From Actinokineospora sp. NBRC 105648 (GTDB lineage Bacteria; Actinomycetota; Actinomycetes; Mycobacteriales; Pseudonocardiaceae): DNA of 64,000 bases. Numbering within the stretch: the first letter of the stretch is position 1; every line of letters starts with the position of its first letter. Positions 6,898 through 41,400 of this stretch are shown piece by piece. The stretch is from contig NZ_BSTR01000008.1 of assembly GCF_030269645.1 (NCBI RefSeq), positions 1-64,000 of the forward strand. The letters run 5' to 3'. Under the pieces are notes generated by a model. That model did not search any database. It saw only the letters and a list, made by a program, of their open reading frames with translations, and was not told the DNA's origin. The translations under genes were made by a program, and so were the position numbers.

Positions 6898-8109
6898 TCA
6901 GCGGTGGGTGGAGACGGGTTGGGCCGCTGAGCTGGTGATACCGGGGACGACGCCGCAGATCACCAGGGTGGCTAGCGTTATGGCTACGGCGCAGTTCTCC
7001 AGTCTGGTGAGGTCTCGTTCGCCGGTGGGGGTTCGGAGGCGGGTGAACAGGCCGAGGAAGCCGCGTAGTGCCGTCATCCCGTTGACCGCCATCGCCAGTA
7101 CGGCGATGAGGGCCAGCGGGAGCGCGATCTCGGCCAGTAGGGCGTGGTCGTCGGCGAAGCCCGGCAGTAGCGGGAAACCCGCTAGGGCCAAGGCGAAGAG
7201 CACGTAGGCCACTGCTAGTCGCGGGGTGTTGGACAGGTCGCCGCTCGGGGTGGTGTAGGAGAGGGTGCCTCGGCGGGCGGCGAGCACGCCCGTTGTCATC
7301 GCCAGGCCAGCGGTGGCGACCAAGGCCGTCGGCCAAGCGGCGCCTGCCAGTGCCAGGCCGTTGGCGGCTATCACGAGATACGCGAGGGCTCGGTGAGCGT
7401 CAGTCTGGACCACGGCGAAGATCGCGGCGATCGCGACCGACAGCACCCCGATGACGGCGGATGTGTTGCCAGTAGGGGAAAGCAGGATCACCGGTGTGCT
7501 GAGGTAGGCCACGACGATCCCGATCGGCGCGCGGTCGACGAAGCGCGGGAACCACGCGTGGGCCGGGATGATCGCGAGTCGGATGGCCGCGCCGAGCAGG
7601 AGAGCGATCTCGCCTGCCAACCCCGGCATGACGGCGCCCACCAGGAACAGCACGACGGCCGGGACCTGGTACAGCGCGAACAGCCGGTCCAGGCCATCCG
7701 ATCTCCCGCGCAGACCAGACCACGTCAGCCACGTCGAGACGGCGATCAGGGCAGCGTCGAAACCGTTGTGCCGCACTGCCAGCAGCGCGCACGAGACCGC
7801 CACCAGCCGCAGGGCGCGGGCCAAGACAGCGGGTATGTGTGTCGCAAGTGGACTCATCGCGGCGATGAGCAGGCCCGCCAGGCTGATCGCCGTGCACGCC
7901 TGGGCGCCGGCACCCGGGCTCACCGCCAAGCCCACGACGTCGGCCACCCGCTCGGTCGGGAGGGCGATCGACAGCAGCGACAAGCCGACGGCAGCCGCCG
8001 CGCACCAGGTCGCGACTCGGCGGGCGGACCCGGGGTCGGGAACCCGGGCGACGACCTCCGCCGCCACCAACCACACCACGACCACGGCCAGCGGGGCCAG
8101 GGCGATCAC
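6898..8109 (-). CDS. Proton-conducting membrane subunit (NuoM/N-like), second DabB-type subunit
   Basis: A 403-residue polytopic membrane protein, nearly all hydrophobic helices. It keeps the ion-channel motif region of complex I / Mrp antiporter subunits (AIIPAHAWFPRFVDRAPIG, the 'HxWLPxAh' segment). It is much shorter than NuoL, NuoM or NuoN. The start GTG at 8109 overlaps the stop of the gene before it (GTGA), so translation is coupled. In this operon it probably joins the other NuoL-like protein to form the cation channel that powers DabA. An ordinary complex I subunit is unlikely because no other nuo gene is nearby. Confidence 0.75.
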   Translation of the reverse strand: MIALAPLAVVVVWLVAAEVVARVPDPGSARRVATWCAAAAVGLSLLSIALPTERVADVVGLAVSPGAGAQACTAISLAGLLIAAMSPLATHIPAVLARALRLVAVSCALLAVRHNGFDAALIAVSTWLTWSGLRGRSDGLDRLFALYQVPAVVLFLVGAVMPGLAGEIALLLGAAIRLAIIPAHAWFPRFVDRAPIGIVVAYLSTPVILLSPTGNTSAVIGVLSVAIAAIFAVVQTDAHRALAYLVIAANGLALAGAAWPTALVATAGLAMTTGVLAARRGTLSYTTPSGDLSNTPRLAVAYVLFALALAGFPLLPGFADDHALLAEIALPLALIAVLAMAVNGMTALRGFLGLFTRLRTPTGERDLTRLENCAVAITLATLVICGVVPGITSSAAQPVSTHR

Positions 8110-36715: not shown

Positions 36716-38233
36716 GTGGCCGACTCCGTGACAGAATTCCTCACCGCCCGCCGGGCGCGCTCCCGACCGCTGCGCACCCTGGTCGGATTGCTCTGCACGG
36801 GCTGGCAACCACTCGACGAGCTGGTCAGGGTGTCCGCTGTGCCGCGCAGGACGGTCGAGGAGCTGCTCGCGTCGTTCGGCCAGGACATCGAGCGCGACCG
36901 CGGTTCGTGGCGGGTCGCGCCGTCCAAGGTGAACGGATATCGGAACCTGGCGACCCCGCCCGCGGAGGTCCCCGACGACACCCTGCGACCGGTCTTCGAG
37001 TCCTATCTCGCCGGTGTCCCCAGCCCGGCGCGCGCGTTGGACCACGTCCAGGCCGACGTCGACACCATGCTCCGTCGCGCCCGCTGGCTCGACGAGACCT
37101 ACCACCTCCCCGGCGCCCACCTCCTCTGCCTCGGCGACCACGACCTGACCGCGCTGGCGGCCTGCACCCGGCGCCCCGGCCTGTCGGCGACGGTGGTCGA
37201 CGTGGACGACCGGCTGTTGGCCTACATCGACGCCCAGGCGAAGGCAAAAGGTCTGGACATTCGCTGCCTGCACGCGGACTTCCGCTTCGGCCTGCCACCG
37301 GCGGCGGTCGGCAGCGCCGACCTGGTGTTCACCGACCCGCCCTACACACCGGAGGGCATGCGCCTGTTCCTGGCCCGCGCCGTGGAATCCCTGCGCGACC
37401 CGGACGGCCGCATCGCCGTGGCCTACGGCTACAGCGAGCGCAATCCCGTGCTGGGCCTGAAGACCCAGCAGGAGATCCTGCGCCTGGGCCTGGTGTTCGA
37501 GGCCGTGCTACCCGGCTTCAACAGATACCTGGGCGCCCAGGCCGTCGGCAGCGCCAGCGACCTGTACGTGCTGCAGCAAACGGCCCGCTCCTCCCGCCTG
37601 GCCGAGGCAGCCGTCCGCGAAGTGGTGGCGGGCATCTACACCCACGGCCCCCAGTCAGTGGAGTCCGGCGCAATCCCCGCGACCGCAATCGCGGACCTGT
37701 TGCGCCTCAGCACGGCCACGGCCCTGTCGAGTCCATCGTGGACAGACCCGATCCGCGCAAACGGCCCCACGGCCTACGACCTGACCGCCGACCCGGGCCC
37801 CTGGCTCGCCCGAGTCCTGCTGGCGGGCCCCGCCTTCCCGATCGGCGCGCTGGTCACCAACACCCACCCGGACGTCGCCGACCAGCGCGGACAACTGGCA
37901 CTGAAGTCCCTGGTGGCGGGCAAGTACACGCTGACCTTCCACCGCAGCGTGGGCGACGGCAAGCACACGGTGGTCATCGCGCAGCCCACTACCAACGGGG
38001 TTCGGGGGACCATCCTGTCCCGCGTCCACGGCAAACTGGAGAACGTCTGGCGAGAGGCACTGATCGCCACGACACCGGGGCTGACGAAGCGGGAGGCCCG
38101 GGAACAGGTGGCCGCGGCGGCACCGCACGCGAAAGACCTGGACCTGCGGCTGATCGACCTGCCCCTGCACCGGATCCAAGCCGTCCTGTCCACAGTGGAC
38201 AAGATTCAACCGGGTGGCGACGCTCAAGGGTGA
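36716..38233 (+). CDS. BpsA / DUF43-like aminopropyltransferase-fold protein
   Basis: A 505-residue protein. An N-terminal winged-helix-like part (ELVRVSAVPRRTVEELLASF) is followed by a Rossmann domain with LLCLGDHDLTALAA and LVFTDPPYTPEGM. The order winged helix, G-D-x-D, D-P-P-Y-T is that of the branched-polyamine synthase BpsA of thermophiles, where the motifs are GDDD and DPPYT. The C-terminal 200 residues (about 300-505) are extra and unassigned. The substrate here is unknown; the DPPY motif also occurs in DNA and RNA methyltransferases. A TACGCT -10-like box ten bases before GTG 36716 suggests a leaderless or nearly leaderless transcript. Confidence 0.65.
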   Translation: MADSVTEFLTARRARSRPLRTLVGLLCTGWQPLDELVRVSAVPRRTVEELLASFGQDIERDRGSWRVAPSKVNGYRNLATPPAEVPDDTLRPVFESYLAGVPSPARALDHVQADVDTMLRRARWLDETYHLPGAHLLCLGDHDLTALAACTRRPGLSATVVDVDDRLLAYIDAQAKAKGLDIRCLHADFRFGLPPAAVGSADLVFTDPPYTPEGMRLFLARAVESLRDPDGRIAVAYGYSERNPVLGLKTQQEILRLGLVFEAVLPGFNRYLGAQAVGSASDLYVLQQTARSSRLAEAAVREVVAGIYTHGPQSVESGAIPATAIADLLRLSTATALSSPSWTDPIRANGPTAYDLTADPGPWLARVLLAGPAFPIGALVTNTHPDVADQRGQLALKSLVAGKYTLTFHRSVGDGKHTVVIAQPTTNGVRGTILSRVHGKLENVWREALIATTPGLTKREAREQVAAAAPHAKDLDLRLIDLPLHRIQAVLSTVDKIQPGGDAQG

Positions 38234-38286: not shown

Positions 38287-38428
38287 GCCGGATTGGGTGG
38301 ACCTGTTTTGTCTGGGGAGAAAAGAGGCGCTAGCCTGGTTCCGGCGTGGGTGATCCCTTCCCCACCCGCTTCACCCCGGCGCCTCTTTTCTTAGGGGCCC
38401 CAGGCAAAACAGGTCCACCCAATCCGGC
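38287..38428 (+). repeat. 140-bp inverted-repeat element, copy A
   Basis: The outer arms (gccggattgggtggacctg... at 38287 and its complement ending at 38428) pair over about 30 bp with one or two mismatches. An inner pair, gaaaagaggcgc / gcgcctcttttc, is followed by a ~50-base loop containing cccttccccacccgc. The right arm has an extra taggggcc. No flanking target duplication is visible. Confidence 0.9.
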
Positions 38429-38436
38429 CATCCGCT

Positions 38437-38535
38437 GGAAGCCCGCTGTGGTGGTGGCCGGGTTCCGGCGCGGGGCCGGATTGGGCGGAAGCCCCCTGTG
38501 ATGGAGGCCGGGTACCAGCGAATGGCCGGATTGGG
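38437..38535 (+). repeat. 50-bp direct duplication between the two elements
   Basis: Two adjacent units starting ggaagccc at 38437 and 38487 (period 50) each run through ctgtg.tgg.ggccgggt and end in gccggattggg, the terminal sequence of the inverted-repeat elements. This suggests that partial element ends have been duplicated here. Confidence 0.7.
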
Positions 38536-38664
38536 TGGAGTGGCTTTGTTTGGGGCCCCTAAGAAAAGAGGCGCCGTGGGTAGAGCGGGTGGGAAAGGGA
38601 TACCCACCGCCTGGGCCAGGCTAGCGCCTCTTTTCTCCCCAAACAAAGCCACTCCACCCAATCC
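38525..38664 (-). repeat. 140-bp inverted-repeat element, copy B (opposite orientation)
   Basis: The reverse complement of this element follows copy A motif by motif, including ggctagcgcc/gaaaagaggcgc, gcgggtgggaaaggga and taggggcc. Its outer arms are perfect over about 28 bp (ggattgggtggagtggcttt and complement), yet differ from copy A at the same positions on both arms. Confidence 0.9.
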
Positions 38665-38847
38665 AGCACTCGGGCCTCGGGTCGGCCAAGTCCACCCTGG
38701 GGGTTCGGCCACCCGCGCAGGAACCCAACCGCCCCCGAGGTGGAAGTCAACCAGCCGGAGTTCGGGCAGCCCCGAGCTGGAGCTCAGCGACCGGAGCCAA
38801 CTGCCCGCCCGGCCACGCTGGGGCTCGGACCAGCGGCAAGCCGGAAC

Positions 38848-41400
38848 CTAGGCCCCGCTGGGGATGTGCACCGGGCCCAGCTTCAAGATCTCCCGGAACT
38901 CCCGTGCGGGCAACGGCTTCGACAACAGCCAGCCCTGGTAGGCGTCCACTCCGACGCCACGCAGGACGTGGAACTGGGTGGCGTTCTCCACGCCTTCGGC
39001 CACGCAGCTGCGGCCCATGGCCCGGGCCATGTCCACCAGGGCGCGGGCGACCGCGAAGTCCGAGGCGTCGGTGGCCACCCCGGAGACGAATCGGCGGTCG
39101 ATCTTGATGATCTGGGCCGGTAGTTCCTTCAGCCGGGCCAGCGACGAGTAGCCGGTGCCGAAGTCGTCCACGGCGAACCGGACGCCGCGTTCCACCAGTT
39201 CGGCCATCGCCTCACGGCTGCGGGAGGGCAGGTCGATCAGGCTGGTCTCCACCAGTTCCAGCACGACCCGGTCCCAGGCGATACCGGTGGCCGCGACGCA
39301 GGCCGAGACGACGTCGACGAACTCCGGGTCGCCCGGCACCAAGCCCGCCAGGTTGACCGCGATGCCGACGCTCGCGCCGAGGACCCCGCCGCACAGCTGT
39401 GGCCACTCGGCCGCCTCGGTGAAGGCCGCGCGCAGCACCCAGCGGTCCAGTTCGCCGAGCAGGTCGCCCTGTTCGGCGACCGGGAGGAAGTCGCCCGGTG
39501 CCAGCAATCCGCGCTCGGGGTGCGGCCAGCGCACCAGGGCCTCGGCCGAGAGCACTGTCCCGTCCGGGCCCACCACCGGCTGGTAGTGCAGCACCAGCTG
39601 GTCGTTCATGATCGCCTCGCGGAGCTGGCCCTCCAGCAGCATCTGGCTGTTGGCCGAGGCGATCAGTTTGTCGCTGGCCAGCGAGACCCGCCCGGTGCCG
39701 CGCGCCTTGGCCGCGAACATGGCCGCGTCGGCGTAGCGCAGCAGGTCGGCGCCGCTGGTCTCCGGGCCGCTGGGCACCGCCGCGCCGATGCAGGCCGACA
39801 CCCGCAGCAGCTGGTCGCGGACCGGGACCGCGGTGCGCAGCAGGCTCGCCGCCTGGTTGGCCAGGGCCTCGACCCCGCCCGCCTCCTCGACGTCGGAGCA
39901 GATCACCACGTACTCGTCGCCGGACATCCGGGCCACCGTGCAGCTCGGCGGCAGGCCGCGCTCCAGGCGCCGGGCCAGTGCGGTGATCAGCTCGTCGCCG
40001 ACATCGTGGCCGAGCGAGTCGTTGACCCGCTTGAAGTTGTCCACATCGCAGAACAGCAGCGCGATCCGCTCGTAGTCGCGGCCGCCGAGCAGCTTGCCCA
40101 GCAGCTCCTTGACCGCCGCCCGGCCGGGCAGCCCGGTGAGCTCGTCGTGGGTGGCCTGGTAGCGCAACCGCTCAGCGGCACGCCTGCGGTCGGTGACGTC
40201 GGCGAAGACCACCAGCCAGAACCGCTGGCCGTCGTCGGCGACCGACACCGTCGCGTTGAGCTCGCAGTAGACCGGCTTGCCCGCGGCCGTGGCCAGCACC
40301 CGCTGGCCGCTGTGGAACGAGTGCGACTCGCGGACCCGGCGGTGCTCGCGGTCGTCCGGGTGGGTCAGCTGCTCGGCGGTCGTCCCGCGCAGCCGCTCCA
40401 GGTCCATGCCCAGCAGCGAGCAGAGCGCGTCGTTGGCGTCGACCAACCGCTCGGCGTCGTCGAAGAGCGCGATGCCGACCGGGGTGATCGCCACCAGGTC
40501 GGTGAACCGCTTGCTGGAGCGCTGCATCCGGGTCTCGGTCGAGCGCTGCTCGGTGACGTCCTGCGCGGTGCCGATCATGATGTGCAGGTCGCCGTCGAGC
40601 CCGGCCGCCTCGCCGCGCACCCGGAACACCCGGCGCTTGCCGTCCGGGCGGATGACCCGGTGCTCGCACTCCACCGGCCGCCGGGTGCTCGCCAGCTCCT
40701 GCCAGCGCTGGTCGACCCAGCCGCGGTCGTCCGGGTGGACCAGCCGCAGGTAGTCGCTGTAGGTGATCTTGGAACCGGGCTCCAGGCCGCCGAGCTCGTA
40801 GAGCATCGAGGACCACAGGCAGTCGCCGGTCTCGGTGTTCCACTCCCAGGTGCCCAGCCGGGCCACCCGCTGCGCCTCGCGGAAGAGCCTGCCGTCCTGG
40901 CTCAGCTGCCGTTCCAGGGCGCGGAACTTGGTGAAGTCCTGCACCGTGCCGTGCACCCGCACGACCTGTCCACCCTGGTCGAACTCCGGCCGGGCGCGCA
41001 CCAGGTAGGTGCGCTCACCGGTGTCGTCGCGCACTTCCAGCTCGACCGGCTGCGAGGACCGCTGCCTGCCCAGCCGGAGTCGGAAGTCGGTCAGGACCGG
41101 GATGTCCTCGGGGTGCACCAGGGAGAGCAGGTCGGGCAGCGCGGCGCGCGCGGGCAGACCGCAGAGCCTGCGCAAACCGTCCGACAGGTATGCCTGGCCG
41201 GTGCGCACGTCGAGGGTCCAGCTGCCCATCCGGGCGATCCGCTGGGCCTCGAGGAGCAGGGCGCGCTCGGCCGCCGGGTCGTCCTCGACCGCGTCCGGCT
41301 CGGCCAGGTCGGGAGCCAGGACACGACCGGCGTCGACGTCGAACCCGCCGGTCGGCAGCCCGACCCGGGGTAGCCCGGCGCGCACGACATGCTCGGCCAC
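38848..41400 (-). CDS. PAS-GGDEF-EAL protein (cyclic di-GMP turnover)
   Basis: An 850-residue cytosolic protein. Three PAS domains (about residues 45-420), a GGDEF domain, then an EAL domain. The GGDEF signature is degenerate: MSGDEYVVICSD. The EAL domain keeps EALVRW, ELVET, DDFGTGYSSL, IKIDRRFV and AEGVE, so it should be an active c-di-GMP phosphodiesterase. The diguanylate cyclase half is doubtful and may serve as a GTP sensor. I chose GTG 41400, with GGAGGGA upstream, over TTG 41439. It is convergent with the BpsA-like gene. Confidence 0.92.
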   Translation of the reverse strand: MAEHVVRAGLPRVGLPTGGFDVDAGRVLAPDLAEPDAVEDDPAAERALLLEAQRIARMGSWTLDVRTGQAYLSDGLRRLCGLPARAALPDLLSLVHPEDIPVLTDFRLRLGRQRSSQPVELEVRDDTGERTYLVRARPEFDQGGQVVRVHGTVQDFTKFRALERQLSQDGRLFREAQRVARLGTWEWNTETGDCLWSSMLYELGGLEPGSKITYSDYLRLVHPDDRGWVDQRWQELASTRRPVECEHRVIRPDGKRRVFRVRGEAAGLDGDLHIMIGTAQDVTEQRSTETRMQRSSKRFTDLVAITPVGIALFDDAERLVDANDALCSLLGMDLERLRGTTAEQLTHPDDREHRRVRESHSFHSGQRVLATAAGKPVYCELNATVSVADDGQRFWLVVFADVTDRRRAAERLRYQATHDELTGLPGRAAVKELLGKLLGGRDYERIALLFCDVDNFKRVNDSLGHDVGDELITALARRLERGLPPSCTVARMSGDEYVVICSDVEEAGGVEALANQAASLLRTAVPVRDQLLRVSACIGAAVPSGPETSGADLLRYADAAMFAAKARGTGRVSLASDKLIASANSQMLLEGQLREAIMNDQLVLHYQPVVGPDGTVLSAEALVRWPHPERGLLAPGDFLPVAEQGDLLGELDRWVLRAAFTEAAEWPQLCGGVLGASVGIAVNLAGLVPGDPEFVDVVSACVAATGIAWDRVVLELVETSLIDLPSRSREAMAELVERGVRFAVDDFGTGYSSLARLKELPAQIIKIDRRFVSGVATDASDFAVARALVDMARAMGRSCVAEGVENATQFHVLRGVGVDAYQGWLLSKPLPAREFREILKLGPVHIPSGA

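Follow-up and report, generated by a model that had tools for sequence, protein, structure and literature searches.

ERIC/RU-1, Correia/NEMIS and RUP are non-coding repeats of 100–200 bp that occur in many intergenic copies and carry terminal inverted repeats; their transcripts are predicted to form long stem loops, and the enzyme that mobilises them is mostly unproven (PMC2229807). The hairpin elements of Actinokineospora described here are similar to such MITE-like repeats in size, lack of coding sequence, many intergenic copies and terminal inverted repeats. They differ from them in being GC-rich, with no TA ends and no target duplication, and in having covarying arms of 31–44 bp, a one-sided bulge, a strand-specific tolerance of G.U pairs and inverted neighbour pairs. 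Of the features by which MITEs are recognized, short length, absence of coding sequence, terminal inverted repeats and many intergenic copies are present, and target-site duplication was not found. With regard to an autonomous relative with the same ends, a DUF222 gene lies between inverted hairpins in another genus (g20); none was found in Actinokineospora.

REP and BIME repeats, which are accompanied by RAYT, are palindromic and extragenic; the units often come as inverted pairs and are thought to move in trans as a folded single strand. The Actinokineospora hairpins are likewise palindromic, extragenic and often arranged as inverted pairs, but the unit is several times longer and a Y1 transposase was not found in 14 of the 16 genomes of the genus. 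In integron attC sites one strand is folded, its arms vary but stay complementary, and the unpaired bases are confined to one side. The hairpins resemble them in the arms, the one-sided unpaired bases and the folded strand, yet at the loci seen they are dispersed and do not form gene-cassette arrays. A further likeness is to the REP13E12 and DUF222 genes of actinobacteria; a DUF222-family gene stands beside hairpins in g20 and g57 only among the loci compared, a weak match in g53 apart. The hairpin family is taken to work like REP and MITE families. Membership in neither is claimed, since a target duplication and, in this genome, a RAYT were looked for and not encountered.

The locus lies in a 64,000 nt stretch of the Actinokineospora sp. 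NBRC 105648 genome (contig NZ_BSTR01000008.1, positions 1–64,000), referred to as the window. The repeat to which it belongs fills intergenic space in high copy number across an actinomycete genus, and Rfam gave no match at gathering score in the 10 loci searched, 53 kb from outside the window. It provides a large natural set of covarying sequences for a hairpin that seems to be mobile, and it opens to test how small bacterial hairpin repeats spread without a resident transposase, and whether DUF222 proteins act as mobilising enzymes.

Hairpins A and B and their copies in the genome

Element A is 142 nt long and is located on the forward strand at 38287–38428. Its outer arm (P1) comprises 38287–38317 on the 5′ side, with GGGG at its end, and 38398–38428 on the 3′ side, with CCCC at its start. 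The inner arm (P2) comprises 38318–38330 on the 5′ side (AGAAAAGAGGCGC) and 38379–38391 on the 3′ side, and a conserved 3′ bulge, TAGGGG, remains unpaired at the P2/P1 junction (38392–38397). Element B (143 nt, 38525–38667) is on the reverse strand, in opposite orientation to A. Read in element orientation, its outer arms are at 38637–38667 (5′) and 38525–38555 (3′), its inner arms at 38624–38636 (5′) and 38562–38574 (3′), and its TAGGGG bulge, CCCCTA on the forward strand, at 38556–38561. In both elements the outer arms are 31 nt each and 97 % complementary, and the inner arms are 13 nt each, 100 % complementary and 48–49 nt apart. Two 50 bp direct repeats, 82 % alike and assigned to neither strand, are found between A and B (38437–38536), and a partial copy of a sister subfamily, III, is located at 141–256 on the reverse strand.

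A preliminary description of this region had placed two inverted repeats in opposite orientation between convergent genes, with outer arms complementary over about 28–30 bp. Coordinates and neighbouring genes agree with this: a forward-strand gene with a BpsA_C domain ends upstream of A at 38233, and a reverse-strand gene with PAS/GGDEF/EAL domains (38848–41400) lies beyond B. The start given there, 38287, is accurate; the end, 38664, falls three bases short of B. The difference between the arms of A and B that had been pointed out is real, with ggacctgttttg and caaaacaggtcc in one element facing ggagtggctttg and caaagccactcc in the other, matched on both arms. The absence of a reading frame is accurate in that our own gene caller predicted no gene in the gap holding A and B, but mechanical calling does give ORFs, of 113 and 117 aa, that run across them. 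Folding z-scores were −11.9 for A and −11.4 for B, reached in 0 of 200 shuffles each, and 10 mononucleotide shuffles of the window contained no hairpin of 20 or more pairs; A and B are therefore not chance structures. MicroRNA models of Rfam gave six matches to the window hairpins, with E-values down to 5e-6, but at 21–42 bits against gathering scores of 86–197, and these were set aside as matches to generic long hairpins.

The assembly searched comprises 8.43 Mb in 149 contigs. An initial DNA search, in which 40 of 141 candidates were scored, returned at least 54 matches, reverse-strand self-matches included, and the stretches around matches yielded 48 strong and 27 weaker copies, 75 in all once redundancy was removed. 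A covariance model, R1, was built from 47 of the 48 strong copies, one half copy being dropped, and a second model, R3, representing subfamily III with its other inner arm, from 22 of the 27 weaker ones. On the whole genome R1 found at least 89 distinct places by hand count, at least 68 of them scoring 150 bits or more. R3 found at least 150 matches, all of 150 bits or more, at places other than those of R1. The genome accordingly contains, as a lower bound, at least 218 strong copies of a hairpin family of about 140 bases, which bears out the expectation of further copies. The architecture within this genome is a P1 of about 31 bp, the 3′ bulge, a P2 of 9 or 13 bp and a variable loop.

Several contigs of this assembly (G000) end in or beside hairpin copies (for example C77:56–193, C64:112–249, C1:162–300 and C9:162–299), and the repeat probably breaks the assembly at these ends. 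Additionally, tandem repeats of about 30 nt (CCGCAGCGGATAGGCCG) precede subfamily III hairpins in the NBRC 105648 genome (L021, upstream of 16634; L033:19583–19673).

Paired arms and bulge

Covariation was assessed on 47 full copies, 46 of them distinct, over a structure of 44 pairs and 2023 cells. Standard pairs make up 99.8 % of the cells, against a shuffled mean of 92.6; 16 pairs show two-sided changes and 132 cells double changes, and none of these three values was reached in 500 shuffles. The number of further pair types was equalled by 62 of the 500. When the partner is shifted by one base, pairing falls to 49–52 %; shared ancestry is kept in these slid partners, and the shuffles do not remove it. 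Likewise, subfamily III is 99.8 % paired, with two-sided changes in 11 pairs, and 34 copies from across the genus are 99.6 % paired, with 23 of the 31 outer pairs changed on both sides. The covariation of arms across copies that the preliminary description had anticipated is thus apparent. One double transversion, from C-G to G-C at column 4, is found in 20 of the 47 copies.

The outer-arm pairs of 136 oriented Actinokineospora elements comprise 3941 Watson-Crick pairs, 157 G.U, 7 A.C and 17 other mismatches; orientation was set by the bulge, five hairpins that could not be oriented were omitted, and at least one element is counted twice, as A. diospyrosa entered the sample under its name and again as G015. 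Because copies share ancestry, each column and pair type was also counted once in the three deepest sets, which gave a G.U to A.C ratio of 19:3 (binomial p 0.0009). The ratio is 40:1 where the neighbouring genes run with the element and 26:3 where both run against it. Among 39 distinct hairpins from outside the genus there are 6 G.U pairs, 6 A.C pairs and 19 other mismatches, and given this lack of asymmetry the one-strand claim is limited to Actinokineospora. The preliminary description had offered either maintained pairing, as an RNA hairpin or DNA cruciform, or correction of one arm against the other. A double-stranded cruciform or a correction blind to strand would be symmetrical, so that a one-strand fold, as RNA or single-stranded DNA, fits the asymmetry within the genus better. 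Selection on one folded single strand of either kind is thus likely to keep the arms complementary. In this form the earlier interpretation is supported; to it are added the size of the family, its spread over genus and family, the turnover of its sites and the DUF222 neighbourhood in other genera.

In 34 aligned Actinokineospora copies the bulge GGGG does not vary. As read from the sequences, the inner arm varies by species, and within the genus the bulge GGGG is kept, as are the GGGG/CCCC top of the 5′ stem and parts of that stem. In the parsed hairpins from outside the genus, stem end, bulge and partner take two main states. The first, GGGG / AGGGG / CCCC, is found in 10 distinct hairpins and in 3 more with a shorter AGGG bulge; the second, GGAG / AGAGG / CTCC, in 27 distinct hairpins from two genera. 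No mixed state was found among the readable hairpins outside the genus, a set from which 14 of 54 parsed rows were dropped as parser artefacts and to which the hairpins of g8 and g53 do not belong. Both states are present in a single genome, G181. The stem end and its partner pair by construction of the parse, but the bulge does not. That the bulge changes with the stem may reflect a base triple or an alternative pairing; an intramolecular triple helix was considered as a possibility, with the reservation that the bulge meets the stem without a linker.

Placement, turnover and spread

None of 138 elements overlaps a gene predicted by our own caller by more than 60 bp. In 60 stretches from relatives, convergent gaps (29 kb in all) contained 16 elements, codirectional gaps (69 kb) 12 and divergent gaps (29 kb) 2; about 10 of the stretches had been picked around known matches, so these densities are of use only for comparing gap types with one another. 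Neighbours within 700 bp form 18 inverted pairs and no direct ones among 159 elements. Single elements between codirectional genes are sense in 20 cases and antisense in 17, and a hand count in G014 gave no replication-strand bias (37 vs 39, with the origin assumed at position 1). The flanks of subfamilies I and II are C-rich and T-poor. Four consecutive T residues within 20 nt after the hairpin were found in none of 46 I/II copies, none of 17 copies from relatives and 3 of 22 subfamily III copies. The T run directly after the hairpin that marks an intrinsic terminator is absent from the 46 copies of the window's own subfamily. A direct tandem array of three hairpins in the same orientation, spaced 268–269 bp apart, occurs in G005 (L059:640–1322), an exception to inverted pairing that lies outside the set of 159.

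R1 matched 15 of 16 Actinokineospora genomes (the exception is G012). In the rest of the family it matched 1 of 21 genomes, and in the rest of the order none of 24. Named records of the genus are A. diospyrosa, A. inagensis and A. terrae. Across the 15 matched genomes the arms are species-specific while the architecture is shared. Of 150 family genomes sampled with a broader model, R2, 28 gave matches, several of them at E-values close to the threshold. These genomes represent 10 of 46 genera; 22 of the 28 belong to nine genera other than Actinokineospora, and the hairpin layout is recognizable in the sequences read from other genera. A literature search, largely without subscription papers, recognized no published description of this repeat.

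Four hairpin sites of the A. diospyrosa group were compared with the syntenic gaps of up to three relatives, and all 10 comparisons were without a detected hairpin. Seven of these empty gaps measure only 1–143 bp; the other three, at the G011 site, measure 573–1232 bp and were scanned only. Two further sites were left out of the comparison, G015 6967, which is another repeat, and G004 86562, whose orthologous neighbours have two genes between them. The window pair is absent from the site list, as the hairpin finder may fuse an inverted pair into one large hairpin and did so here. In 15 of 15 relatives, the 1.5 kb that follow the orthologous BpsA_C gene contained no detected hairpin of the family; a palindrome in one of them (L115, +888) was rejected as a family member and reads as coding sequence. 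A separate repeat with 40 bp arms (CGCGTGGTTCCTGGCCG type) occurs in several Actinokineospora genomes (L150:1904–2071, L140:4743–4913 and G015:C3 at about 6968–7133).

Letter-identical copies, chosen for their tied scores, include a 142 nt hairpin at 10 loci in G014 and a 139 nt hairpin at 7 loci in G006. Beyond 30 nt the flanks of these copies are at 25–32 % identity. The first 30 nt of the left flank are at 69 % (G014) and 53 % (G006), a weak left motif, and the right flank of the 10 G014 copies is already at 37 % in its first 30 nt. Five identical copies in G098 have near flanks in common on both sides, the first 30 nt on the right being at 90 % identity. In A. diospyrosa the flanks are common to copies over a tapering 250–500 bp, with left and right modules in differing combinations. 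These flanks are themselves repeats, with modules of about 68 nt upstream and, by reading, of about 40 nt downstream and a third kind beyond, so the moving unit may exceed the hairpin. Such partly conserved flanks also mean that recombination between copies, and not transposition, may spread the hairpins. The lack of a target duplication noted earlier holds, no exact match of 4–12 bases being found across the ends of 46 and 22 copies from the NBRC 105648 genome and 17 copies from two relatives; a single 3-base match occurs among the 17, where 0.7 are expected. C-rich repeats of about 68 nt stand in tandem before the hairpin at A. diospyrosa loci (L108:2087–2291), and other repeats of that species, containing TGTGGACAA, which resembles a DnaA box, are located about 300–500 nt after the hairpin at loci such as L082 and L084.

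On balance, and with moderate confidence, A and B are read as copies of a non-coding hairpin repeat that is dispersed over the genome and likely mobile; selection on one folded single strand, RNA or DNA, likely keeps its arms complementary. Empty related sites and identical copies in unrelated surroundings were counted for mobility; counted against this reading were the lack of a mobilising gene found in the genus and of a target duplication, the partly conserved flanks, the absence of strand asymmetry outside the genus and the unmatched G012. Copies would be made via the folded plus strand by an enzyme acting in trans, paired arms could drift over such copying cycles into new subfamilies, and insertions may persist mainly in convergent 3′ gaps, where they would do least harm. 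A possible but unlikely alternative is an RNA useful to the host at gene 3′ ends (a terminator, RNase processing site or barrier to convergent transcripts), selected at each site and occasionally duplicated. The position of all 138 elements outside predicted genes, the richer convergent gaps, the very stable fold, the strand-specific G.U tolerance and the C-rich, T-poor flanks of subfamilies I and II would all suit such a role. Orientation nevertheless does not track transcription (20 sense vs 17 antisense), the G.U bias persists in antisense elements, the compared sites are not conserved between species, and the four-T counts (0/46, 0/17 and 3/22) do not favour a terminator. One site in G005 carries the element together with a small hairpin, and in the relatives the site carries a similar small hairpin that ends in a short T-rich stretch.

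Ectopic gene conversion among older repeats could have spread the family in place of transposition, which we regard as rather unlikely. The tapering 250–500 bp flanks and recombined modules of A. diospyrosa, the common near flanks in G098 and, by reading, the recombination of arms and loop types between pairs in L028 and L043 are consistent with it. Same-site gaps down to 1 bp in relatives speak instead for newly inserted DNA (or its loss) and not for conversion of an old copy, and the right flanks of the 10 letter-identical G014 copies, whose first 30 nt already show 37 % identity, argue against it too. Arm-to-arm correction, in which one arm is rewritten from the other during template switching or hairpin repair and no function is involved, is improbable and already weakened. 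It would explain near-perfect pairing and the many two-sided changes that are double transversions needing no G.U step, as at column 4 (20/47). Being blind to strand, however, it does not account for the excess of G.U over A.C within the genus, nor for bulge and stem-top features that are also conserved across species.

Candidate mobilising enzymes

Y1 (RAYT) transposases were found in 2 of 16 genus genomes and not in the NBRC 105648 genome or 13 others, and a RAYT/IS200 driver for the genus was rejected on the 14 genomes without one. Reverse transcriptases are present in 3 of 16 genomes, including NBRC 105648 with three matches; occurrence in only these three argues against reverse-transcribed spread as a common driver. 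No protein family is enriched beside the hairpins: among 417 neighbours the largest cluster has 8 members, an ABC transporter component by reading. DUF222 genes occur in 2 of 16 Actinokineospora genomes, the single one in NBRC 105648 is not beside a hairpin, and loci of 3.9 kb around the DUF222 genes of the genus contained no hairpins. A DUF222 driver in Actinokineospora is not supported on these grounds.

DUF222 proteins are abundant in actinobacteria and are not known to have an established role. In g20 and g57, a DUF222-family gene lies within 1.5 kb at 19 of 19 hairpin loci (two of which are one site); at 24 loci from seven other genera and the NBRC 105648 genome there is none. The hairpins of g20 genomes are arranged as inverted pairs about 1.4 kb apart. 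In G095, 13 pairs were counted by hand among 29 matches, and 13 of 13 enclose a gene similar to DUF222 proteins; in G145 all 5 pairs fetched enclose a DUF222-like gene, in one case with the gene in two pieces. Three g20 proteins that were scanned are 380–415 residues long, and Pfam reports DUF222 only; by reading, their C-terminus appears to carry an HNH-like motif. The DUF222 protein is the leading candidate for the mobilising enzyme in g20 and g57, as judged from its position beside the hairpins. A more speculative and doubtful extension is that a new class of actinobacterial mobile element exists, in which a DUF222-HNH nuclease would move units ending in strand-specific hairpins. Each hairpin would be locked by the bulge, in which G or A would follow the two stem strands through a base triple or an alternative pairing. 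The hairpins of Actinokineospora would be stripped, highly amplified descendants of this element. In G069, a genome of g53, the gene inside an inverted pair about 1.4 kb apart (L270:757–2100) matches the g20 DUF222 proteins only weakly, at 27.7 bits.
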